Shown piece after piece: positions 1 to 51,270 of a DNA stretch of 64,000 bases. Both the position numbers and the translations under genes were made by a program. Source of the stretch: Chitinispirillaceae bacterium (lineage in GTDB: Bacteria; Fibrobacterota; Chitinivibrionia; Chitinivibrionales; Chitinispirillaceae); assembly GCA_016930275.1 (NCBI GenBank), contig JAFGHA010000080.1, forward strand, positions 1 through 64,000, read 5' to 3'. Under the pieces are notes generated by a model that was not told the origin of the DNA, made no database searches, and saw only the letters and a program-made list of their open reading frames with translations. Position 1 is the stretch's first letter. Every line of letters starts with the position of its first letter.

Positions 1-1
1 A

Positions 2-760
2 GCTTTTCAGCTAACTATTACGGGGTACTCTAATGTCAAGCAGAGCATGCCCATCCTTGTTACGCAAACATTTGACGATATCGGGCAGAAAATCGATGAG
101 AGTATCAGATTCGGTAATTTATCGATCGCAACTCTAAATACGGCAAAGACACATCCATTTTTTACTACTTTTATTGATTGGAGCTATTTCGCTTTTTTTG
201 TATATATAATTTTTGTTCTGGTTATTCTTATAATGGAATTTCCACCGAACAATGTCCGGATACAGTGCTTTTTAGGCGGTCTTATGATTCTTTGGGGCAT
301 AGGAGTATACACATACTACCTTTTCCCTATGATTGGCCCGGTTTATCATGTCCCGGAACATTATTTAACTATATCAAATATTCCCCAACACGCTTCAAAT
401 CTTCAACAAAAGCTTTTACTATTTCATACAACGCTGCTGAATAACCCAGTTTCCTACCTGCCGGTTCCATTTATGGGTATTGCCGCAATGCCGAGTTTTC
501 ACGTTGCAGAAACATTCTATTTTGCACTTGCCTTGATTTGGATCAAATCGTGGTTTGTTCGTTTATTCGGTGTTCTTATGTTTTTAATAACCTTTTTTGG
601 ATCATGTTATACAGGTTGGCACTATTTTATTGACGGCATTGCGGGAATTATCTGGGCTACGATTGTATACATCTTTACCGCCTTATGTATAAAATACAAA
701 TTTAGTTGTTCAACCAAGTCTCCAGTGATTCAGCTCCATCTACGGACTGATCAATTATGA
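2..760 (+). CDS. PAP2 / inositolphosphotransferase-like membrane protein (5' partial)
   Basis: The reading frame is open to the left window edge, so the true start may lie outside; an internal ATG sits at 47. Counting from that ATG, hydrophobic segments lie near residues 44-63, 74-96, 155-170 and 172-210. PSFH (149-152) and GWHYFID (190-196, His192 and Asp196) match the second and third phosphatase motifs of the PAP2 superfamily. A proline-containing segment near 93-103 recalls Aur1/Ipt1-type inositolphosphotransferases. Such enzymes move or remove phosphate-linked head groups of lipids at the membrane. The stop codon overlaps the next ATG (ATGA), so the two genes are probably co-transcribed. 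The DNA is AT-rich compared with most of the window. Substrate is unknown. Confidence 0.72.
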   Translation, partial: AFQLTITGYSNVKQSMPILVTQTFDDIGQKIDESIRFGNLSIATLNTAKTHPFFTTFIDWSYFAFFVYIIFVLVILIMEFPPNNVRIQCFLGGLMILWGIGVYTYYLFPMIGPVYHVPEHYLTISNIPQHASNLQQKLLLFHTTLLNNPVSYLPVPFMGIAAMPSFHVAETFYFALALIWIKSWFVRLFGVLMFLITFFGSCYTGWHYFIDGIAGIIWATIVYIFTALCIKYKFSCSTKSPVIQLHLRTDQL

Positions 761-2226
761 ACAAATCATTTATATCTTCCAACAATCGGTTACTTATCAT
801 TGTTTCTGTATCCATTACGATTATACTTCTTTCTTTGTTTTCCGCATGCGCAATCCTCCGACGATTGAATTTCGACGAGAGCCTTTTAGTCCGATCTGGA
901 TGGCTGTCCTTTAACAACATAGAATATGCTCCTGCTTTTTTCATGCCAGTCACACTACTCTCTGGCTTCTTCGCTACCCATATCCCTGATCCCGGGATTT
1001 TATTTATTAGCTTGCGTTTATTGACACTTTCATCAATTATTTTTTGCTATCAACTTTGCATAAAAAAAAGTTCATCGATACTTATTTCATTCGAAATCTC
1101 AACATTATTCCTTTTTACAAACTGTTCATTTATTGTTCACGGTTTTGAATTCCGGTATGATTGGGCTATCCTTCTCGGCTTGCTTCTCTCTCTCTACCTG
1201 CTTCAAAATGAAAACACTTTATCTGCCTTCATTTGTGGAGCCATCATAACTTTAACTGCATTTCATCACACCAAAGGGTTGTATTATGCTTTCTGGATTT
1301 ACTGTGTTGCACTTTATACGTATACTTATTATGATCGTGTATCATTAAAAAAAAGGATCTTATACTTACATACTGGAATTGCATTCAGTTTTGTAATATG
1401 GCTATTACTCTGCTTCCTTTTAAGTAAAATCGATGAATCAATCCAACTGTACCGAACGTTTATCTGGGTCGCAAAAGGTGTTCACCGAAATTTATTCAAC
1501 ATTTATTTTTATAAAGCCCTTAAAAGAGATTCGATGTGGTGGCTATCCGTCGTGTGTTTAATTGCAGCATTTCTCAAAAATTTCAAGACCATCATTGACG
1601 ACCGGTTTTTAGCAACAACAATGCTGTTCTTGGTGGCTACACTTATTTTCCCATTTTTGCATCCACGTCCCTGGCCATATATGTTAGCCTTAGCAGTACC
1701 GTTTGCTTCGCTACTGGTTACATATTTTTTTAGTAACATAAAACAGATAACGCCTAAATGGCATTTCGTTATACTTGGAATAATTATACTTGTCTGTCAT
1801 ACCACTATCGGTACTGACTGTACATATAAAACATATAAAACATCTCTTCAACACAATCGAGAGCGTCAAATAACAATGATGCGACGACTGAAGTCAATTT
1901 CCCATCCAGATCAAAAAATACTGGACCCTTCCGGATTGGCATATTTTCTAATTCCATGTACTTCTGAATGGTATACCGATCAGCTTTTTCGACCCAAATC
2001 TGAACAGAGAACCTGGATGAATGATCTGTTACCCTCACTAGATTCATGTACCTGGATTGTTTCAACCTACCGGCTCTCATACTTAGATAGTACGGTCAAT
2101 GAACGAATTAGAACATCCTTTATCCCTGTCGGTACTGCATTAATGATCAACCGGATCTTTTTTGAAAAAAACCCTAACAATTATATTATAGAAAGCAACT
2201 TTTCACGCCTGACAACATTTTGGTAA
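757..2226 (+). CDS. Polytopic GT-C-like membrane protein
   Basis: This 489-residue protein has about ten hydrophobic segments followed by a soluble tail from about residue 360. An Asp-Glu pair (40-41) just after the first membrane helix is placed like the acidic catalytic motif in the first periplasmic loop of GT-C glycosyltransferases (PMT/ArnT type), which use polyprenyl-phosphate sugars. No family is recognised with certainty. Its ATG overlaps the stop of the PAP2-like gene, suggesting a shared role in lipid or glycan modification. The coding sequence is strikingly AT-rich (many TTT, ATT, AAA codons), unlike most genes in the window, which hints at acquisition by transfer. Confidence 0.6.
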   Translation: MNKSFISSNNRLLIIVSVSITIILLSLFSACAILRRLNFDESLLVRSGWLSFNNIEYAPAFFMPVTLLSGFFATHIPDPGILFISLRLLTLSSIIFCYQLCIKKSSSILISFEISTLFLFTNCSFIVHGFEFRYDWAILLGLLLSLYLLQNENTLSAFICGAIITLTAFHHTKGLYYAFWIYCVALYTYTYYDRVSLKKRILYLHTGIAFSFVIWLLLCFLLSKIDESIQLYRTFIWVAKGVHRNLFNIYFYKALKRDSMWWLSVVCLIAAFLKNFKTIIDDRFLATTMLFLVATLIFPFLHPRPWPYMLALAVPFASLLVTYFFSNIKQITPKWHFVILGIIILVCHTTIGTDCTYKTYKTSLQHNRERQITMMRRLKSISHPDQKILDPSGLAYFLIPCTSEWYTDQLFRPKSEQRTWMNDLLPSLDSCTWIVSTYRLSYLDSTVNERIRTSFIPVGTALMINRIFFEKNPNNYIIESNFSRLTTFW

Positions 2227-2565
2227 CATTATACCTTCACCTAAATATTTCCATCAATATCGGGGTTTGATCAATACCAGCACAACAAACAGGCTTGTCT
2301 TGTGGTATAAATGCACTACTTTCGCGCTTTATGCCCGTCCAACATACATGCTTTCCGTGCAAATATTGGGCTTTTAAGATAATGTCCTTCTTATATGCAC
2401 ATCCTCTGAGTCAGGCCGGCGATTTGCCTGCGTCTCCTTCAGATTTTATATCACCATGAACACCCTTGCCGTCCGCTGACACTTCCCCCTGTCGGGTGTA
2501 TTCGGGACTTTGGGACCATCATCCCCCTACCCTAAAGCAGATGCGCCCTGCCGGGTATACAAAAA
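2227..2565. other. Intergenic gap without a supported gene
   Basis: About 340 bases between the GT-C-like gene and the pilin terminator. Short open stretches exist but none has a ribosome binding site or plausible protein composition. The part from about 2466 to 2560 is more GC-rich than the preceding gene and reads like decayed coding DNA. I could not identify its source. Confidence 0.5.
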
Positions 2566-2596
2566 AAATCGTTACCGATTTGAACGGTAACGATTT
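2566..2596 (-). terminator. Rho-independent terminator of the prepilin gene
   Basis: An 11-bp perfect inverted repeat (2566-2576 and 2586-2596) encloses a 9-nt loop. Read on the minus strand the stem runs directly into a T-run (complement of the A-run beginning at 2561). It lies 27 nt beyond the pilin stop codon. Confidence 0.85.
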
Positions 2597-2622
2597 GAAA
2601 GTAAAAACTGTAGTTATTTCTC

Positions 2623-3081
2623 TTATGAACCACTTACTGTCAGCGCGAAGTTCCCAAGATACTTGTCGCCGAAAGCTCCAACCGTATGAGTAATAGCGCT
2701 TTGTGCAGTAATTGAACTTATTGCACCATTATTTCCGGAGGTATTCGCGTTAGTAAATGAACCTACATTTTTATCTGCGGCTACCGAAGCCGTCATTGTA
2801 ACCGGCCCAGCAGCACTATATGACCCCGAATAGGTAAACCATTTGCTATTGTTCGGATTTTCAAAAACGATTTCACTCTCGCCAGCTGGACAAGTACCCA
2901 CTTCAGAAATACGTGCAATCACCCCATGATCCCAACTGCCGACCACCGTAGGTATTTCACTGATTTTCGCTTTGGTGGACGCATCGGTGAATTTCGGAAT
3001 GGCCAGAGCGGCGAGAACACCGATAATAACGATAACAACCATCAGTTCAACGAGGGTAAAACCCTTATTCGTACGTAGCAT
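2623..3081 (-). CDS. Type IV pilin-like / pseudopilin precursor
   Basis: This 152-residue protein has a class III signal: a short basic leader ending in Gly (MLRTNKG), then FTLVELMVVIVIIGVLAALA, with the conserved Glu at position 5 of the mature form. That is the mark of proteins processed by prepilin peptidase and assembled into type IV pili or type II secretion pseudopili. The start at 3081 is chosen because GGAGG lies 4 nt upstream; the ATG at 3093 is itself upstream of that ribosome site. The C-terminal region is rich in Ser, Thr, Ala and Asn and has only one Cys, so no disulfide loop. It stands alone with its own terminator and no pilus assembly genes nearby; major pilin versus minor pseudopilin cannot be decided. 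Confidence 0.88.
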   Translation of the reverse strand: MLRTNKGFTLVELMVVIVIIGVLAALAIPKFTDASTKAKISEIPTVVGSWDHGVIARISEVGTCPAGESEIVFENPNNSKWFTYSGSYSAAGPVTMTASVAADKNVGSFTNANTSGNNGAISSITAQSAITHTVGAFGDKYLGNFALTVSGS

Positions 3082-3332
3082 AAAGCCTCCCATTGGAATA
3101 GAATTACTTGTTTAACTTACTGATACAAATCAAGATAGAAGAAATATAATTTCTTCCCCCTTTCCTGAACACCCGTAACGATGTTCCGCCAGTGGAAAAG
3201 TTATACACAAAGTATATCGACCCAGTGCATGAATATCAAGTTTTTTTTCCATTCAATACCCCACCATGTTACTGAACTTCAAACAAGAGGCACTGAGTGA
3301 TATTGACAATTGAATCGATTATAGTTTTATGT

Positions 3333-3602
3333 TTATTCTCTCGGCCGTTTTGCCGTAACATAGAGATGCTCCACCGGCAGCGTACCGGTCCGGATAATCG
3401 TATGCGATGTTGTTGCCACGACCTCCCACCCCTGCGTACCGATCTTGTCGAGATAATTGTAGAGGGTCATGTCGGTCCAGTTTGAAACTTTTTCACCATT
3501 GACATAGTGTACTTTCCACGACACTTCCTTCGGCAGTACGTGTCCGAAAACTCCCTTGCCGTATTTTTCGGCGATAATGAACTGGTATTCCCATTTTAAC
3601 AT
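3333..3602 (-). CDS. DUF4177-like small protein
   Basis: An 89-residue soluble protein. The segment LDKIGTQGWEVVATTSH resembles the hallmark of the DUF4177 family (leucine-rich helix, then GWE-hydrophobic strand), whose function is unknown. The start at 3602 (MLKWEY) is preferred: GGAG lies about 10 nt upstream, and DUF4177 proteins commonly begin with a similar WEY strand. A longer form from 3644 is possible. It is flanked by the pilin promoter region and a GT-C-like gene on the same strand. No signal peptide or membrane segment is visible. Confidence 0.65.
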   Translation of the reverse strand: MLKWEYQFIIAEKYGKGVFGHVLPKEVSWKVHYVNGEKVSNWTDMTLYNYLDKIGTQGWEVVATTSHTIIRTGTLPVEHLYVTAKRPRE

Positions 3603-3755
3603 GTCGTTGGATCTCCGGAACATAATGCACACCGATTTTTCCAACCGGTTTTACCATTGTACAATCCATATCACCAGCGTGCAACCGTTTTGCCACAGAC
3701 GGTCATACACCAAGGCCCCGTTTCGATCTCGCTATGGATCTATTTGAACTGGCAG

Positions 3756-5351
3756 CTACTTATGGCCGATTCCGAATCCGGTGGAATGAATAACCAAATC
3801 TAACAACTCTGCCTGTTTTTCCTTCAATGAATCAGGCTCTTTTATATACAGGGAAAAGGTGGTAAAACAAAAAGCAATGCAACAACTGTAAACAATACTT
3901 TTTATCAATTGCTTACCTTCCAGCACTTTGAATAGATTCAGAAGAAACAACAGCGCGATTCCTGCCATAAAAGCGCTCCAAATGGCCACGGTAACTACCG
4001 GCGGAGTCTTCAATTGTGATGCGGTACTACAACCACTCCGTAGTAGCGGTAAACAAAAATTATAAAGGGGATTAATGAAGATATCGGGAAAATCGCTGAA
4101 TGTCAGCAATGCAATCCCGGCATGAAAAAAACCAACGAGAGCGAATCCCGCCATACAGCGCAAAAGCAGAGAAGACCTTTGGTTGGTTTGCAGAAAAATC
4201 GCCAGACTGCCGACAAGAACAGGAATTACCGGCACCAGATAACGGGTTGCAGCAGACCATCCCCCTTTCCAATCAACGGTGGTCATTGAAAAAACAACTA
4301 CCGCTCCGGTCGCAACAAGCGACAATAATCCGAACTGCCGAAATTTTTCATTTCTCAACATTTCTCGAAAACCGGCAATTGAAAACAATAGAACCGGCGA
4401 AAAGAATAGAAGGCCTCTTTGTGGAAATATGAGCATCCCGGGAATTGATGAAAGCAGGGGAACTTGAATGCCGAAAAACCCGCTCCTATAACAACCGCCA
4501 TAATAAGGATCGGCGTGCAAATGAAAACCGGTACGGAAAGGAGAGTCAAAACACATTTTATTATAGAGCAAAACACCGGCAAGCGGAATGACGCATCCGA
4601 GCAGGAACGGAATCAGGGTCTTCCAATCGTGGATAAGGCGTAGAACAGCGGTGAATCCAATACAACAGACTGCCAAAAGCAGAATATAGTCGAAGGACAG
4701 TGCCAGCAACAAAAAAAAACCGCTACTGAAAGCGATTAAAGCAGGCGGCACCTTTCTTAACGGTGGGTAGAGCGATGGAAACATTGAAATCATGCTCATG
4801 AAAAGCAATATACCTGCCGGGGCATGCGAAAATAATTTATTCGAGTAAATAAAAAAAACGGTTCCGAATGCACCGATTAGAATTGATGCGAATACTAAAT
4901 GAGGACGTAACCCGAAACCAGTCAGTATGCTATAACATACCAACCAGAAGAACACCGTTGGTACCGTTACACCAAATAGTCTAAATATTTCAACACGTGT
5001 ATAAATTGTCGCATTCGACGGTAAAAAAATCTTAATCAACCACGCCACCGGACTCAGCAGAATTGAATACCCCGGAGGTTTATCACTGAACAAATGCCCC
5101 TTGTATTCCGCCATGTCCTGAATATCACCGTATTTATTCACGACGTTATCGATGTGAAAACTGCCGTCCTCAGCAATTGCCATCGCAAGATAAACCCTAC
5201 TCAACATGTTCGGATTAATGAATCCGGGATACGTTATTTTAAGAAAAAAATTACCGAACAGTACGGCAAACAGCAGAATACCGTAGGTATATCCATTTTT
5301 TTTAATCCATTTCAGCCCACTTCGACCGGATAAATTTACTGTTTCAGCCAT
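3756..5351 (-). CDS. GT39-like / GT-C membrane glycosyltransferase
   Basis: This 531-residue polytopic protein has roughly eleven hydrophobic segments. The first periplasmic loop carries NPNMLSRVYLAMAIAEDG and then DKPPGYS, the layout of ArnT/PMT-type (GT39, GT-C fold) enzymes that take sugars from a polyprenyl-phosphate carrier. The ATG at 5351 lies inside the end of the upstream gene (16-nt overlap), arguing for translational coupling; a longer start at 5384 would extend the overlap. Base composition is intermediate between the AT-rich left edge and the rest of the window. Acceptor and donor are unknown. Confidence 0.7.
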   Translation of the reverse strand: MAETVNLSGRSGLKWIKKNGYTYGILLFAVLFGNFFLKITYPGFINPNMLSRVYLAMAIAEDGSFHIDNVVNKYGDIQDMAEYKGHLFSDKPPGYSILLSPVAWLIKIFLPSNATIYTRVEIFRLFGVTVPTVFFWLVCYSILTGFGLRPHLVFASILIGAFGTVFFIYSNKLFSHAPAGILLFMSMISMFPSLYPPLRKVPPALIAFSSGFFLLLALSFDYILLLAVCCIGFTAVLRLIHDWKTLIPFLLGCVIPLAGVLLYNKMCFDSPFRTGFHLHADPYYGGCYRSGFFGIQVPLLSSIPGMLIFPQRGLLFFSPVLLFSIAGFREMLRNEKFRQFGLLSLVATGAVVVFSMTTVDWKGGWSAATRYLVPVIPVLVGSLAIFLQTNQRSSLLLRCMAGFALVGFFHAGIALLTFSDFPDIFINPLYNFCLPLLRSGCSTASQLKTPPVVTVAIWSAFMAGIALLFLLNLFKVLEGKQLIKSIVYSCCIAFCFTTFSLYIKEPDSLKEKQAELLDLVIHSTGFGIGHK

Positions 5352-7237
5352 GGTTCCGCCATTTTCAATGCATACGTTTTGCACCGGCGACTATCCTGAA
5401 GAGCTCCATTTTCCTCATAGAGATCTCCCAGAAAATGAAGTGTTCTTCCATAATTGAGGTACACATCATATTCAACCCGACTTTCGGCTTCTTTTTCGGA
5501 ACGGGGAAAAGAGTTAATGGTACATTGTTTGAAGCTATGCAGGAGCTCTTTTTCAAGTGACGGCAAATCTATTTTACCTGTGTCATATTGGGCAATCTTT
5601 AAAAGAACCGCCTTGAAAGGCAGTATTTTTTTGAAATAAAGCCGGATTCCTTTATTGTTTTCGAATGACGGTGTAAGGAACAACGGCCATGAAGGATTCA
5701 ACGCATTGACGAGAGCGATATTCGTCTCATCCGGCTGGATTTTGAATTGTTCTGCATTCAGTTCAAGATCCGGATGTTTTTTCTGAAGCAACCTGCAATA
5801 CCATGTTTTCCGAAGCAATGGAGGTGAAATGACCGTTACATCGGTCCGTAGTTTTTGAACTTCCTGCATGTACAGAAAACCACCGAATTCCGAATCGGAA
5901 CTCAGCATAACAATTGAGCGATGAGGGATAACGGCGAAACAATTCTTCACATAATCCTGCAATAGTGTCCAGTGGCTGCTTCTGACCTGACCGATTCCGT
6001 TGCTGCAACCGATTGCCGCAAGTGCAAGCAACAGAATTGTCTTAAGCTGTCTGTTGAAAAAATGTTGAGCTGCGAAGTACATCGATGTGCTGATCGCAAT
6101 CGACGCGATGACAAATGGAGCGAGATAGAACCGTTCAACAATGAAGCGAGTGAAACCGACCGGCTTTACTTTCATCGCTACGGCAAAAAGAGGACCGGCA
6201 AAAATGAATGTGGATAGAAGAGAGATCTGAATCTGGAATACCCGTCTTGGCAACGACTTGAAAAATACTACCGATGCTAAAAACGCCAAGACAATCGGAA
6301 TGGAAAACTGTCTCACAAATACGCTGAAGAACATTCGGACATTTTCTGTGATTCCTGCGGACAATTTTCCTTTACTCAATGAAAATGTTCCGTATTCTTT
6401 TCGTAAAAAATGGTCGGCCAGATCATGCAATGAATTAATCGTACCCCAGGTCCAGCTGCCGGATCTTCCGATGAGTATCAGATACGGTACAAAACCGAGC
6501 AGGCTGAAGATACAGAATAATGCGGTATTCTGTAAAGTTTTTTTTGAAAGACCGTGTACTCTGAACAAATGCAGGAATGCAAAAAAAATGATCGGAGCGG
6601 ACAAAATGATAGTATGGTGATGTGCTATTCCCAGGGCAAAAGCGCAACCGAGGAGTATAAACCATGATGGTTTGAGTCGATCATCCACAATGATCCGGAT
6701 TGATCCCGCAACCACTGCTGAAAACACGAATGTCGCTCCGGTGAATACTTCCGGAATGGTTGAGTACGTCCAGAAGAGCGGTGTGAAGCCTACCAGAGAT
6801 GCGCATACGATACCGTGAATGATACTCCCGCTTATCACTACCGCAGTTAGAGATATCAAAAACAGTGTACAGGCCCCGGCCAGAGCAGAAACCAGTGAGC
6901 CCCTGTATACCGGGTTACCGAAAGGAATGAGTTTTTGTGCAGCCCGGCAAACAAGCGTATAAAGAGGATACCCCGGCGGATGGGCGATCCCTCCCGATAC
7001 TGCAACAGTCACGTACTCACCGCTGTCGAGCCCCTGGATCGTGCCGGCTGCCGTAAAAGTGTACAAGAGAAAAAATACGAACGCCACCCCCGTCAGGCAT
7101 AATAACTTGAATGATAATGAGTGCATAAAGAGGTGACTCACTTTTAATCGAACGATGCATTTAATCCGGTACTCGTGACTGTTGCTATCCCCTGAAAAAT
7201 TGATACAAACCTTTTCGAAGACAGATGAATCCCTCAT
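5336..7237 (-). CDS. DUF2723 family membrane protein (GT-C-like)
   Basis: A 633-residue protein with about ten membrane segments (from residue ~42 to ~400) and a soluble C-terminal domain of some 220 residues. GLDSGEYVTVAV (Asp71, Glu74) followed by GIAHPPGYPLYT is the characteristic signature of DUF2723, a GT-C-like group related to TMEM260-type O-mannosyltransferases; the acidic residues are the likely catalytic site. The C-terminal soluble part may bind the acceptor. The start is uncertain: ATG 7237 leaves a long polar N-terminus, and ATG 7126 (MHSLSF) begins right before the first helix, but neither has a good ribosome binding site. It is followed with overlap by the GT39-like gene. Confidence 0.75.
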   Translation of the reverse strand: MRDSSVFEKVCINFSGDSNSHEYRIKCIVRLKVSHLFMHSLSFKLLCLTGVAFVFFLLYTFTAAGTIQGLDSGEYVTVAVSGGIAHPPGYPLYTLVCRAAQKLIPFGNPVYRGSLVSALAGACTLFLISLTAVVISGSIIHGIVCASLVGFTPLFWTYSTIPEVFTGATFVFSAVVAGSIRIIVDDRLKPSWFILLGCAFALGIAHHHTIILSAPIIFFAFLHLFRVHGLSKKTLQNTALFCIFSLLGFVPYLILIGRSGSWTWGTINSLHDLADHFLRKEYGTFSLSKGKLSAGITENVRMFFSVFVRQFSIPIVLAFLASVVFFKSLPRRVFQIQISLLSTFIFAGPLFAVAMKVKPVGFTRFIVERFYLAPFVIASIAISTSMYFAAQHFFNRQLKTILLLALAAIGCSNGIGQVRSSHWTLLQDYVKNCFAVIPHRSIVMLSSDSEFGGFLYMQEVQKLRTDVTVISPPLLRKTWYCRLLQKKHPDLELNAEQFKIQPDETNIALVNALNPSWPLFLTPSFENNKGIRLYFKKILPFKAVLLKIAQYDTGKIDLPSLEKELLHSFKQCTINSFPRSEKEAESRVEYDVYLNYGRTLHFLGDLYEENGALQDSRRCKTYALKMAEPWLKQ

Positions 7238-45885: not shown

Positions 45886-45997
45886 CTGATATATTTTGTT
45901 GGCAACTACCGGTGATGCGGATGACCAGCCTCAGCCAACACGAAAAGAAATACCAACGCCGGAATATTTTATCAATTTTTGCAGAAAGGAAGTACCG

Positions 45998-46384
45998 ATG
46001 CTGAAAAAGAAGAGCGTTTACAAGTGTGACGTCTGCGGTAACCTTGTCGAGGGTCTGTGGGATGGAAAACCAGCCGTTGTCTGCTGCGGCCAGCCGATGC
46101 GTGAACTGGTTCCCAACACCACCGATGCGGCGAAGGAAAAGCATGTCCCCGTTATCGTTCGCGACGGCAACAAGGTAACCGTGAAAGTCGGTGAAGTTGC
46201 CCATCCGATGACCCCTGAACACTACATTCTTTTTATTGAACTTATCGCAGGTGATAAAGTGCTTCGTCACGATTTTAAAGTCGGCGATACGGTTGCCGAG
46301 GCGGTTTTTTATGTTGAAGATGCCAATGCCCCGCTTCAGGCACGGGAGCTCTGCAATCTTCATGGATTCTGGGGTACCGTGTAA
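45998..46384 (+). CDS. dfx: Desulfoferrodoxin (superoxide reductase)
   Basis: A 128-residue two-iron superoxide reductase. Domain 1 (1-36) is a desulforedoxin fold with Cys10, Cys13, Cys29, Cys30 for an Fe(Cys)4 centre. Domain 2 has the catalytic iron site: Glu47-Lys48-His49 (EKHVPVI), His69 and His75 (HPMTPEHY), Cys119 and His122 (CNLHG). It reduces superoxide to peroxide without forming oxygen, typical for anaerobes. ATG 45998 is chosen for AAAGGA 8 nt upstream. A terminator follows directly. Confidence 0.96.
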   Translation: MLKKKSVYKCDVCGNLVEGLWDGKPAVVCCGQPMRELVPNTTDAAKEKHVPVIVRDGNKVTVKVGEVAHPMTPEHYILFIELIAGDKVLRHDFKVGDTVAEAVFYVEDANAPLQARELCNLHGFWGTV

Positions 46385-46914: not shown

Positions 46915-47661
46915 TCAGAATACTTTCGACAGCCCTCCCCCCAGCACCTGCTCACCCAGTGGCGACCCGTTGACAAATATCATAATTTCACCTGGCAGAA
47001 TCACGGTCATACCCATTCCCGCCTGAAAGAAATACCGGTCACTGCCGCGTACCCTGTTACTGTCGGTAACGCGGATCACCGGTCCGCCGAATACCTTAGG
47101 TGAAAGATAAACCTGCAGCCGGTTCCAGAACGTATATCCGCTGGTAACACTCAAGCGCACATCCGAGGCAAAAAATGAATTCCGGCCGGCATGCGTCTCC
47201 TCGGCCGCAGTCCAGGAAAACGATCCCGATACTCCGGCAACAATAAAGGGAATCGGAAAGTATTCAGTCATCAGAATCCGCGAATACCTGAACGAAACGA
47301 CCGGTCCGTATTTCAGGAACAGCGATATGTCATGATCGGAAAATGTTCCCCCGAGAACCGTACCGGCCCCGATGCCGAAACTCCGGCGACTGATGAAATG
47401 CCAGGCGAGTTCCGCACTCACTGTTTTCTGGGTGAGCACCGGCAAGGCGCCATCGGTAAACTTGAGATACGACCGGAACCAGTTACCCATAACCGACGTC
47501 TGAACAGCAGGTTTGATATTCCCGAGCGAATCCCTGGTGAAATTGGTACGGCAACCGATCGTACCGACCGGTACTCCGCATCCTCACCCGAATACCGGCG
47601 AAGGAGAAAAAAAACAGCAGATGAAGACCGCTATGATAACAAATGATAAAACCTTAATCAT
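46915..47661 (-). pseudogene. Outer-membrane barrel-like gene interrupted by in-frame TGA at codon 26
   Basis: ATG 47661 has AAGGAG 6 nt upstream and starts a signal peptide (MIKVLSFVIIAVFICC, then FFSPSPVFG). Codon 26 is TGA (47584-47586). The same frame then stays open for 222 codons to 46915, and the protein after the TGA shows alternating amphipathic strands (SAELAWHFISRR, VSFRYSRILMTEYF, VRLSVTSGYTFW) with a C-terminal barrel-like end (LGGGLSKVF). The only later ATG (47490) has no ribosome site and would lose the signal. A single base change from TGC, TGT or TGG explains it. At codon 26 Cys would fit a lipobox (VFG-C). Nonsense mutation or sequencing error is most likely; recoding cannot be excluded. 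Confidence 0.7.
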
Positions 47662-47741
47662 GGAACGCTCCTTGTGGCGGTTTGTCACAATAGACCGCAG
47701 GTGTTCACCCGGAAAACCGGGCTCTCCCTCGGAGCAGGGAA

Positions 47742-48719
47742 TCACACCGGTCCCCGTATATGCCCTTCGATCTTTTCCCGATAGAACTCCTGCAATGAGG
47801 TGTGCAGCGACGGCGAAAACGGCTCAAGCTCCGACACCGCCGTATTGCTTTCCACCTGCGCCACTTTCGAGGCACCGGGAATCACCACGCTCACTTCGGG
47901 GAAATCGAGTATCCACCTGAGGGCGAACGCCGCCATGGATATGCCGGCCGGAACCTGCGGGCGCAACGATTCGACACACTCGAGTCCGTACCTGAACTCA
48001 AGTCCCGAAAACGTCTCTCCCGCACTGAACGCTTCGCCGTTACGGTTGTAATTGCGGTGATCCGCAGATGGAAATTCGGTGGCGACATTGAACTTTCCCG
48101 AAAGTAATCCACTCGCCAGCGGCACACGGATGATCAGCGCGGTACCGTTATTTTCAGCATCCTTAAAAAACGCCTCCGCGGGTTGTTGCCTGAAAATATT
48201 GAAAATCACCTGCAGTGAGGCAAGATCATCCTGTTGCAGACAGATTCGCGCCTCTTCGGCCGTTTCGACACTCGCACCGAAAGCACGTATTTTTCCTTCC
48301 TGTCGCAGTTCCCGCAGCCAGTGGAATACCTCACCGCGTTCCATTAACGGGAGGGGAATACAATGCAGTTGCATGAGATCAATCGTATTACGCCGGAGTC
48401 GCCGCAGAGAATTCTCGGTGCAGCGCCTGAAGAGTTCGCGGGAGTATCCGTCGGGATATCCCTCAAGTCTGCCCAGTTTGGTTGCCACATACACTGTTTC
48501 ACTGCATCCGGAAAGAAAGCCGCCGATGATTGATTCACTTCGTCCGCTGCCGTACACGTCGGCGGTATCGAAAAAATTGACACCGCGGTCGACCGCCGCC
48601 GATAAAATGGAATACGCCGTGGTCTCGTCGATAGTTCCCCAGTCACCGCCGAACTGCCAGGTCCCGAGTCCCACCTCCGATACATTCCAGGGGAGCTTGC
48701 CGAATTGCCGATATTTCAT
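47742..48719 (-). CDS. Aldo/keto reductase
   Basis: A 325-residue TIM-barrel oxidoreductase. The family tetrad is visible: Asp and Tyr in FFDTADVYGSGRSE, Lys in YVATKLG and His in LMQLHCIP. GLGTWQFGGDWG opens the barrel, and the end VSVVIPGASKVAQVESN forms the NADP site. It reduces aldehydes or ketones with NADPH. It starts 10 nt after znuB on the same strand and could be transcribed with the zinc uptake genes. The substrate is unknown. Confidence 0.92.
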   Translation of the reverse strand: MKYRQFGKLPWNVSEVGLGTWQFGGDWGTIDETTAYSILSAAVDRGVNFFDTADVYGSGRSESIIGGFLSGCSETVYVATKLGRLEGYPDGYSRELFRRCTENSLRRLRRNTIDLMQLHCIPLPLMERGEVFHWLRELRQEGKIRAFGASVETAEEARICLQQDDLASLQVIFNIFRQQPAEAFFKDAENNGTALIIRVPLASGLLSGKFNVATEFPSADHRNYNRNGEAFSAGETFSGLEFRYGLECVESLRPQVPAGISMAAFALRWILDFPEVSVVIPGASKVAQVESNTAVSELEPFSPSLHTSLQEFYREKIEGHIRGPV

Positions 48720-48729
48720 CGCTGGTTAC

Positions 48730-49581
48730 TCACTTTCTATCCGATGTAACGTCGTCGGGTACAGTCCCGGCCGATGCCAGAGAACTGCTCATACGGAACA
48801 GATAGGTGATTCCGTAAACAATGCACGCGACCATGATAATAACGGCACCCGCCGTCAGATTGAAAACATACGACAGCATGATTCCCGAAAGCGTAATGCC
48901 CGTACCCGCAATCACTGCGAATACCATCATGGTCCGTAGCCGTTTTGTAAAGAGTTCAGCGAGCGAAGCGGGAATCGTGAACAGAGCGATCACGAGGATG
49001 AGTCCGACCGCGGCAATCAGCATCACCACGGTACAGGCGATACAACCCAGCAGCAGATACCGCATGACGACTACCGGCAGTCCGTTTATGGCGGCGAACT
49101 CCTCATCGTACGAAACGGCAAGCAATTCCTTGTACAGAAAAACCACCATTCCGACCACCGCCAGATCGAGCAGTGCCATCATCAGTAAACCGTTTCCCGA
49201 TACCGCCATGATGCTGCCGAACAGATAGCTCATGAGATCGGCGTGGTAACCGGGAGTCAGATCGATCAGGATGATGCCGAGCGCCATCCCGGCCGCCCAC
49301 ATTGCCCCGACCAGCGCATCCGAGCGCTCACGGTTGCGCCCCGCGGCGTACCCCATCACCAGGGAACTGGCGATAGAAAACGGCAGCGTTCCCGCAGCCG
49401 GCGGCAATCCCAGAAACACCGCCAATCCCAGCCCGCCGTAAGCCGCATGGGCCACGCCCCCGGCAATAAACGACATCCGGTTGACCACCACCAGCGCCCC
49501 CACGATTCCGCAGGAAATGCTCACCAACACTCCCGCCGCCAGAGCATTGCGCAGAAACACGAACTGTACCGGATCAATCAT
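48730..49581 (-). CDS. znuB: Zinc/manganese ABC transporter permease (ZnuB-type)
   Basis: A 283-residue ABC-3 family permease with eight hydrophobic segments. VNRMSFIAGGVAHAAYGG is the conserved coupling helix motif, and ALFTIPASLAELFTKR is the usual later signature. It forms the membrane channel for divalent metal uptake with ZnuA and ZnuC. The start at 49581 (MIDPVQ) is chosen for GGAG 9-10 nt upstream; it overlaps znuC by 8 nt. Confidence 0.93.
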   Translation of the reverse strand: MIDPVQFVFLRNALAAGVLVSISCGIVGALVVVNRMSFIAGGVAHAAYGGLGLAVFLGLPPAAGTLPFSIASSLVMGYAAGRNRERSDALVGAMWAAGMALGIILIDLTPGYHADLMSYLFGSIMAVSGNGLLMMALLDLAVVGMVVFLYKELLAVSYDEEFAAINGLPVVVMRYLLLGCIACTVVMLIAAVGLILVIALFTIPASLAELFTKRLRTMMVFAVIAGTGITLSGIMLSYVFNLTAGAVIIMVACIVYGITYLFRMSSSLASAGTVPDDVTSDRK

Positions 49582-50353
49582 GACGGCAGTCTCCTTCGTG
49601 TGCATGAAATACCCGGTGCGGCACTCCGTGCGCAATGAGATCGACCTCACACCCGAATGTTTTGTTGACCGATTCCTGATCGATCTTGCCGTCGGGATGA
49701 AAAAAGAGTGTTTTATTGACACAGGCAACCGATTTTACATACCGCGAGAGGATCCCGACATTGTGGGTGACCAGCACGACCGTCACGCCGGTACCGTTGA
49801 GCAGCCGCAGATGTTCGTAGAGTTCGTCGGAGCCTGCGGCATCGATACTCGCGGTCGGCTCGTCGAGAAACAGCATTTCCGGATCGGCGACCATCGCCCG
49901 TGCCAGCAGCGCCTTCTGCCGCTGCCCTCCGGAGAGCTGACCGATGGGGCGGTTTTTTACTGACGACAACCCGAGCCGCTCCAGCATGATATCCGCTTTG
50001 AGATAATCGGCGCGCAGGAACCGCTTTCCCAGCCCCCGCTTCCCGGCAAGTCCCATCAGTGTGACATCCCGCACCGCCACCGGGAACGACTTGTTGAGCC
50101 CCGTCTCCTGCGGCACGTACCCCACCCGGTGCCGTGTCGCGTGAGGTGTGCCACCGAGCAGTGTAACCGAACCGGAATGTGGTTTTATAAGCCCGAGCAT
50201 GAGCCGCAGCAGCGTCGTTTTTCCACCGCCGTTCGGCCCGATCACTCCCACGAAATCACCATGCCCTACGGTCAATGTTACCGACTCAACCGCAGGCTCC
50301 CTGCCATAGGAAAAGGAGACATCCTTCATGAGGATTGCCGGCTCAGCCGTCAT
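49574..50353 (-). CDS. znuC: Zinc/manganese ABC transporter ATP-binding protein (ZnuC-type)
   Basis: A 259-residue ATPase. Walker A GPNGGGKTTLLR, signature LSGGQRQKALLARA, Walker B LFLDEPTAS and H-loop VTHNVG are intact. FSYGREPAVE and VPQETGLNKSFPV are typical of the metal-uptake group. The C-terminal end is His-rich (HGVPHRVFHAHEGDCRHD), which may sense or store metal. ATG 50353 overlaps the znuA stop by 4 nt; a GTG three codons upstream is an alternative. It powers uptake through ZnuB. Confidence 0.93.
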   Translation of the reverse strand: MTAEPAILMKDVSFSYGREPAVESVTLTVGHGDFVGVIGPNGGGKTTLLRLMLGLIKPHSGSVTLLGGTPHATRHRVGYVPQETGLNKSFPVAVRDVTLMGLAGKRGLGKRFLRADYLKADIMLERLGLSSVKNRPIGQLSGGQRQKALLARAMVADPEMLFLDEPTASIDAAGSDELYEHLRLLNGTGVTVVLVTHNVGILSRYVKSVACVNKTLFFHPDGKIDQESVNKTFGCEVDLIAHGVPHRVFHAHEGDCRHD

Positions 50354-51270
50354 TGTCCGCACAACAGTCCCGTTACATGTTCCAGGTTTTCCGCCCAGTT
50401 TTCAGCCAGCGGATCCGCGACCAACGTTATTCCTCCGATTTCCCGGGCAATCACTGCGGCGGTTTTCACCGAAAACTGGGGCTGCACCAATACCGTTCGT
50501 ATTCCTTCATGTTTCGCCAACACCGCGATTTCCCCCAACCGGCGCAGTCCCGGCTCCTTCCCCTCCACCTCGATGGCAATCTGATGCAGACCGAACGCAT
50601 GTGCGAAATATCCCCAGGACGGGTGGAAAACCAGAAAATTATCCGGTGCACCGCAACGTTCAAGCCGATCGGCAACCCGTTGTTTGAGCGTGTCAATCTC
50701 CATCAGAAAATGCTCGTACCGTTTATGATATTCCACGGCATGCGCGGTGTCTGCATCAGCAAGCGCCCGGACGATTTTCGCCGCCTGCAGTTTGACCAGA
50801 TCGGGTGAGAGCCATATATGCGGATCCGCGCCCTCATGATGGTGGCCGGAAGACGACTCTTTCTCCCCGGCGTGCACAGGCTCTTCATCATCCTCCATGC
50901 GCAGTTTCACAATACCGCTGTCGGTGGGGATAACTTTCAATCCCGGAACACTGCTGCGCAGTTTCGGCAACCACGCCTGCTCCATTTCAACACCGACCGA
51001 GAAATAGAGATCCGCCTTTGCCAGAGCAGCCATCTGTCGCGGCTTCGGTTCAAAGGTATGTGGTGATGTCCCGGCCGGAATAAGCGTCTGCACGGTGCAG
51101 TACTCACCACCGATTTTCTCAACGAAATACTTTTGAGGAGGAACTGAAACGAATACGGAGATAGGGAAAGACTGTTTCTCGACCGGTCTCGTGCACCAGC
51201 ACAATACCGGCAGGATACCTGCCGCTATACCGGATCGGAGTACTTTACTGTATATTCCTGAAATGTTCAT
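50350..51270 (-). CDS. znuA: Zinc ABC transporter substrate-binding lipoprotein (ZnuA-type)
   Basis: A 306-residue cluster A-I solute-binding protein. It has a lipoprotein signal (PVLCWC). Metal ligands are the His in SPHTFEP, the His in DPHIWLSP, the His in FHPSWGYF and the late acidic residue in ADPLAENW. A flexible His-rich loop (ESSSGHHHEGADPH) marks zinc rather than manganese carriers. It captures Zn and hands it to ZnuB. The three znu genes overlap in the order A-C-B. No clear Zur box was seen upstream. Confidence 0.93.
   Translation of the reverse strand: MNISGIYSKVLRSGIAAGILPVLCWCTRPVEKQSFPISVFVSVPPQKYFVEKIGGEYCTVQTLIPAGTSPHTFEPKPRQMAALAKADLYFSVGVEMEQAWLPKLRSSVPGLKVIPTDSGIVKLRMEDDEEPVHAGEKESSSGHHHEGADPHIWLSPDLVKLQAAKIVRALADADTAHAVEYHKRYEHFLMEIDTLKQRVADRLERCGAPDNFLVFHPSWGYFAHAFGLHQIAIEVEGKEPGLRRLGEIAVLAKHEGIRTVLVQPQFSVKTAAVIAREIGGITLVADPLAENWAENLEHVTGLLCGQ

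Follow-up and report, generated by a model that had tools for sequence, protein, structure and literature searches.

A probable secreted-protein gene split by a single in-frame TGA behind its signal peptide in a draft bacterial genome

Introduction

A frame on the minus strand of the window opens with a ribosome-binding site, an ATG and a signal-peptide-like stretch and is then interrupted by one TGA. Do the two sides of this TGA belong to one gene, and if so, is the TGA an ordinary break, a selenocysteine codon or a site of readthrough? The window is the whole stretch of DNA that was analyzed, 64,000 nucleotides in length. The assembly is a draft of 316 contigs with a completeness of 87% and a contamination of 7%. 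The host of the split gene is very likely an uncultured Chitinispirillaceae-type bacterium (Fibrobacterota); by the aldo/keto reductase next to the split gene, its nearest named relative is a Chitinispirillaceae MAG. The genome sample that was read covers about 28% of the whole genome, and scans were carried out over 1.38 Mb or 1.63 Mb.

Reading Frame and Coding Potential

The frame runs from 47661 to 46915 on the minus strand. It was read directly as an ATG and 24 further codons, a TGA, 222 codons and a terminal TGA at 46915-46917 (Table 1). The sequence-only reading had described AAGGAG, the ATG at 47661, a signal peptide and 222 codons joined in one frame with the TGA at 47584-47586 as the sole break, and the sequence is as described. 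It had also stated that an automatic start at 47490 would miss the signal and the ribosome-binding site. The mechanical ORF caller did begin at the ATG at 47490, giving a 191-aa ORF. This position is the first ATG, GTG or TTG downstream of the internal TGA and has no ribosome-binding site. Codons 27-57, the first 31 codons past the TGA, are free of start codons.

Table 1. Features of the split gene and of its upstream neighbors, with positions in the window
Feature	Position	Strand	Basis
Ribosome-binding site AAGGAG, 6 bases ahead of ATG 47661	47668..47673	-	read directly
Codons 1-25, signal-peptide-like N-terminus MIKVLSFVIIAVFICCFFSPSPVFG	47587..47661	-	sequence and hydrophobicity scan
In-frame TGA, codon 26	47584..47586	-	read directly
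Hairpin directly 3' of the TGA, SECIS-like or incidental	47545..47583	-	folding
Orphan coding body (codons 27-248 with the stop), a possible outer-membrane barrel	46915..47583	-	coding score, homolog searches, alternation
Aldo/keto reductase, upstream neighbor, conserved in the genus	47742..48719	-	family match and genus comparison
ABC-3 permease, ABC ATPase and ZnuA-like binding protein (metal uptake), upstream on the same strand	48730..51270	-	family match

Coding potential was scored by hexamer usage, with long ORFs of the source genome as the training set. Codons 27-248 scored +91 bits in the gene frame and the other two forward frames were negative. Codons 27-57, which lie ahead of the first internal ATG, scored +6.5 in frame compared to -12 and -13 in the other frames. 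The signal-peptide stretch scored -4 bits; 6.5% of 107 comparable hydrophobic N-termini from the same genome were as low.

The scan of 1.63 Mb of the source genome took in 104,255 in-frame stops. Of these, 73 combined an SD-like motif with an ATG located 15-45 codons upstream and a core hydrophobicity of more than 2.0. With a core above 3.0 and a K or R near the start the split gene was the only case left, the 3.0 threshold having been set after the case was seen. No other stop among the 104,255 follows a ribosome-binding site, an ATG and a short N-terminus of such hydrophobicity, so chance joining of the signal peptide and the body is very unlikely. The coding frame without a start of its own and the stretch resembling a signal peptide very probably form one gene.

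Alternatively, the locus might yield two independent products, with the first ORF giving a small hydrophobic peptide of 25 residues and translation of the body starting internally, for example at 47490; the shared frame would then be a coincidence. A 25-codon ORF with a ribosome-binding site and an ATG-started 191-aa ORF do both exist at the locus. However, this arrangement is improbable given the coding-like character of codons 27-57 in frame, the missing ribosome-binding site ahead of 47490 and the uniqueness of the joint arrangement among the scanned stops.

The T8 run near 47607 was considered as an indel site, and an indel there was rejected as the sole cause of the break, as the frame past the TGA is the same as that of the signal peptide. 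Runs like T8 are common, at 163 per Mb.

Use of TGA as a Stop Codon

TGA was the stop of 27 of the 46 long ORFs in the window and of 363 of the 762 long ORFs in 1.38 Mb, making it the commonest stop in both the window and the genome sample. Genome-wide reassignment of TGA, already excluded in the sequence-only reading, is ruled out by this usage. The same usage counts against programmed or leaky readthrough by a near-cognate tRNA such as tRNA-Trp. Such readthrough is consistent with a frame that is open and coding on both sides of the TGA, but no signal known to promote it was identified, and it is considered very improbable.

Homology Searches and Nature of the Product

No homologs of the joined protein were found in the genus, the family, 168 genomes of the phylum, GTDB contigs, viral contigs or plasmids, the contig searches being based on short peptide patterns which reach close relatives only. 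Pfam, NCBIfam (selenoprotein families included) and PDB gave no match to the split-gene product. Flanking regions of 80 aldo/keto reductase loci were also searched and contained no homolog of the split gene. Weak matches (L028-L034, E 0.001 to 0.3) were rejected, being short and in most cases interrupted by stops or antisense to other genes. Within the searched collections the split gene is known so far only from its source genome. The check proposed in the sequence-only reading, to see which residue of the homologs aligns to codon 26, depends on homologs and, with 0 found, gave no aligned residue.

The product had been described as barrel-like. Strand alternation in the body is weak (p about 0.04-0.05 on shuffling), and the C-terminal residue is Phe; together these lend weak support to an outer-membrane barrel. 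Pfam, NCBIfam and PDB gave no match, and structure predictions made without homologs were uninformative (pLDDT 31-35).

It had also been suggested that a cysteine at codon 26 would complete a lipobox. Cysteine at this codon would give S-P-V-F-G-C, in which V-F-G is a loose lipobox fit. Neither Phe at -2 nor Pro at -4 agrees well with the usual lipobox patterns, so the lipobox-cysteine reading of codon 26 is a poor fit. V-x-G ahead of codon 26 suits ordinary signal peptidase I, whatever residue 26 is.

Selenocysteine Machinery and the Downstream Hairpin

Selenocysteine had been overlooked in the sequence-only reading. Its single gene, missed signal peptide and absence of reassignment are supported; its barrel and its lipobox are not established. 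The source genome contains the machinery required for a bacterial selenoprotein: selA and selB above curated cut-offs, a tRNA-Sec with a UCA anticodon, and selD. SelB is 64-67% identical to SelB of both same-genus genomes and is thus native and not contamination. Since the genome has selA, selB, selD and tRNA-Sec, selenocysteine is a genuine candidate for the reading of this TGA. The sel locus is located on contig C266 (L051) between 9604 and 13233 and comprises selB, selA and a tRNA-Sec cut by the contig end. The truncated tRNA-Sec was missed by ARAGORN.

SelD with an in-frame TGA (the Sec form) was present in the same-genus genome G002 and in G024 and G030 of another family. The SelD of the source genome is the Cys form, a different type, and the SelD of the relatives was used as SECIS reference for this reason. 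Formate dehydrogenase and HesB-type selenoproteins, sought as references from the genome itself, were not found in the genome sample.

The hairpin after the TGA has an 8-bp upper stem (ACCGGUCG/CGAUCGGU), a GUA loop of 3 nt and a GGU apex, and lies 19 nt from the UGA. The bSECIS model specifies a loop of 3-9 nt, a stem of 4-16 bp, a G in the first two loop bases, a spacing of 16-37 nt and an MFE of -7.5 or below (PMC13188914). The hairpin fits this model, as do 24-29% of random TGAs. The proportion of random TGAs passing the model was about 3% with a GGU apex, a criterion chosen after the case was seen, and 0.8% with a whole-fold energy as low. Dinucleotide shuffles gave a z of -3.1 for the 58-nt fold and of -1.7 to -2.0 for longer folds. 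A synonymous-codon test on the hairpin gave a p of 0.05-0.10; windows of random coding sequence were as extreme in 8.5% of cases. The same test on three SelD controls gave z values of -1.8, -1.8 and -0.9, no better than the split-gene hairpin.

Interpretation of the TGA

If the TGA encodes selenocysteine, SelB would deliver Sec-tRNA at the UGA, aided by the downstream hairpin. This main rival is an unlikely explanation, although it agrees with a genome that has native SelB and the remaining Sec genes and with a model-conforming hairpin whose GGU apex is also seen in the SelD of G002. The product, which is likewise doubtful, would be secreted and would carry Sec-Gly-Cys at its mature N-terminus or immediately beside it. 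No homolog with Sec or Cys at codon 26 was found in the searched collections, the selenoprotein families of NCBIfam gave no match, the synonymous-codon test did not separate the hairpin from background, no second such case was found in 1.38 Mb of the genome sample, and the GGU criterion was applied post hoc. The prior for a selenoprotein is low, given an orphan product that lacks a redox domain and has neither a conserved Cys nor a conserved Sec; the hairpin raises this prior.

Among selenoproteins, the closest comparison is the SelD of G002, which likewise has an in-frame TGA, a hairpin directly downstream, a GGU apex and Sec machinery, with a spacing of 33 nt compared to 19 nt in the split gene. 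The MtrB/PioB-like outer-membrane barrel selenoprotein GSU2204 (NF041027), listed in PMC13188914, resembles the split gene by its setting. Unlike known bSECIS selenoproteins, the split gene has no Sec or Cys homolog and no NCBIfam match, and its Sec would be at the signal cleavage site. If selenocysteine were true, the gene would represent a new lineage-restricted family of secreted selenoproteins in Fibrobacterota, unusual in having Sec at the signal cleavage site. It would also be a sign that homology-based searches overlook orphan selenoproteins without Cys homologs.

The favored explanation is that the TGA at codon 26 is probably an ordinary nonsense mutation or a consensus error. The locus would then hold one gene of approximately 248 residues for a secreted, probably outer-envelope protein, its frame apparently broken by one nonsense codon just past the signal peptide. 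The break would be a point change, which may be a recent mutation, a strain variant or an error in the draft metagenome consensus. If the mutation is real, translation would yield just the signal peptide of 25 residues, with neither synthesis nor export of the body.

At least four other genes in the source genome are broken by a single in-frame stop (L095:1014, L143:14172, L128:7773, L098:7914). Two are broken by TGA, encoding a YhcG/DUF1016 nuclease and a CBM96 protein, and two by TAG, encoding a GH43 protein and a PHB-type esterase. TAG cannot be selenocysteine, yet it splits two genes, which establishes a background of ordinary breaks by mutation or consensus error in this genome. No second convincing gene with a signal peptide followed by TGA was found in 1.38 Mb of the genome, and no homolog or redox domain from the same collections supports a functional residue at codon 26. 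Against an ordinary break, the rest of the frame is undamaged, unlike that of an old pseudogene, the genome makes selenocysteine, and the hairpin is SECIS-like beyond approximately 97% of random TGAs, or approximately 99% when its fold energy is included. Nonsense-interrupted genes in draft MAGs likewise show a single in-frame stop in an otherwise intact frame, but in the split gene a SECIS-like hairpin follows the stop, which comes right behind the signal peptide. The weights given to the four explanations are judgements. If the break is ordinary the case is a useful caution that the signal peptides of such genes escape gene callers and that draft genomes contain several single-stop breaks.

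Genomic Neighborhood

The split gene is the last of a same-strand run with the metal-uptake ABC transporter and the aldo/keto reductase, with which it may form an operon. In both same-genus genomes the aldo/keto reductase is followed by a convergent ABC exporter and not by the split gene. A desulfoferrodoxin (superoxide reductase) gene is located at 45896-46384 on the plus strand of the window, convergent with the split gene. At the start of the window, positions 1-7237 have a low GC content and many A/T runs; besides PAP2 and TMEM260-like proteins, this region encodes two large proteins with no Pfam match.
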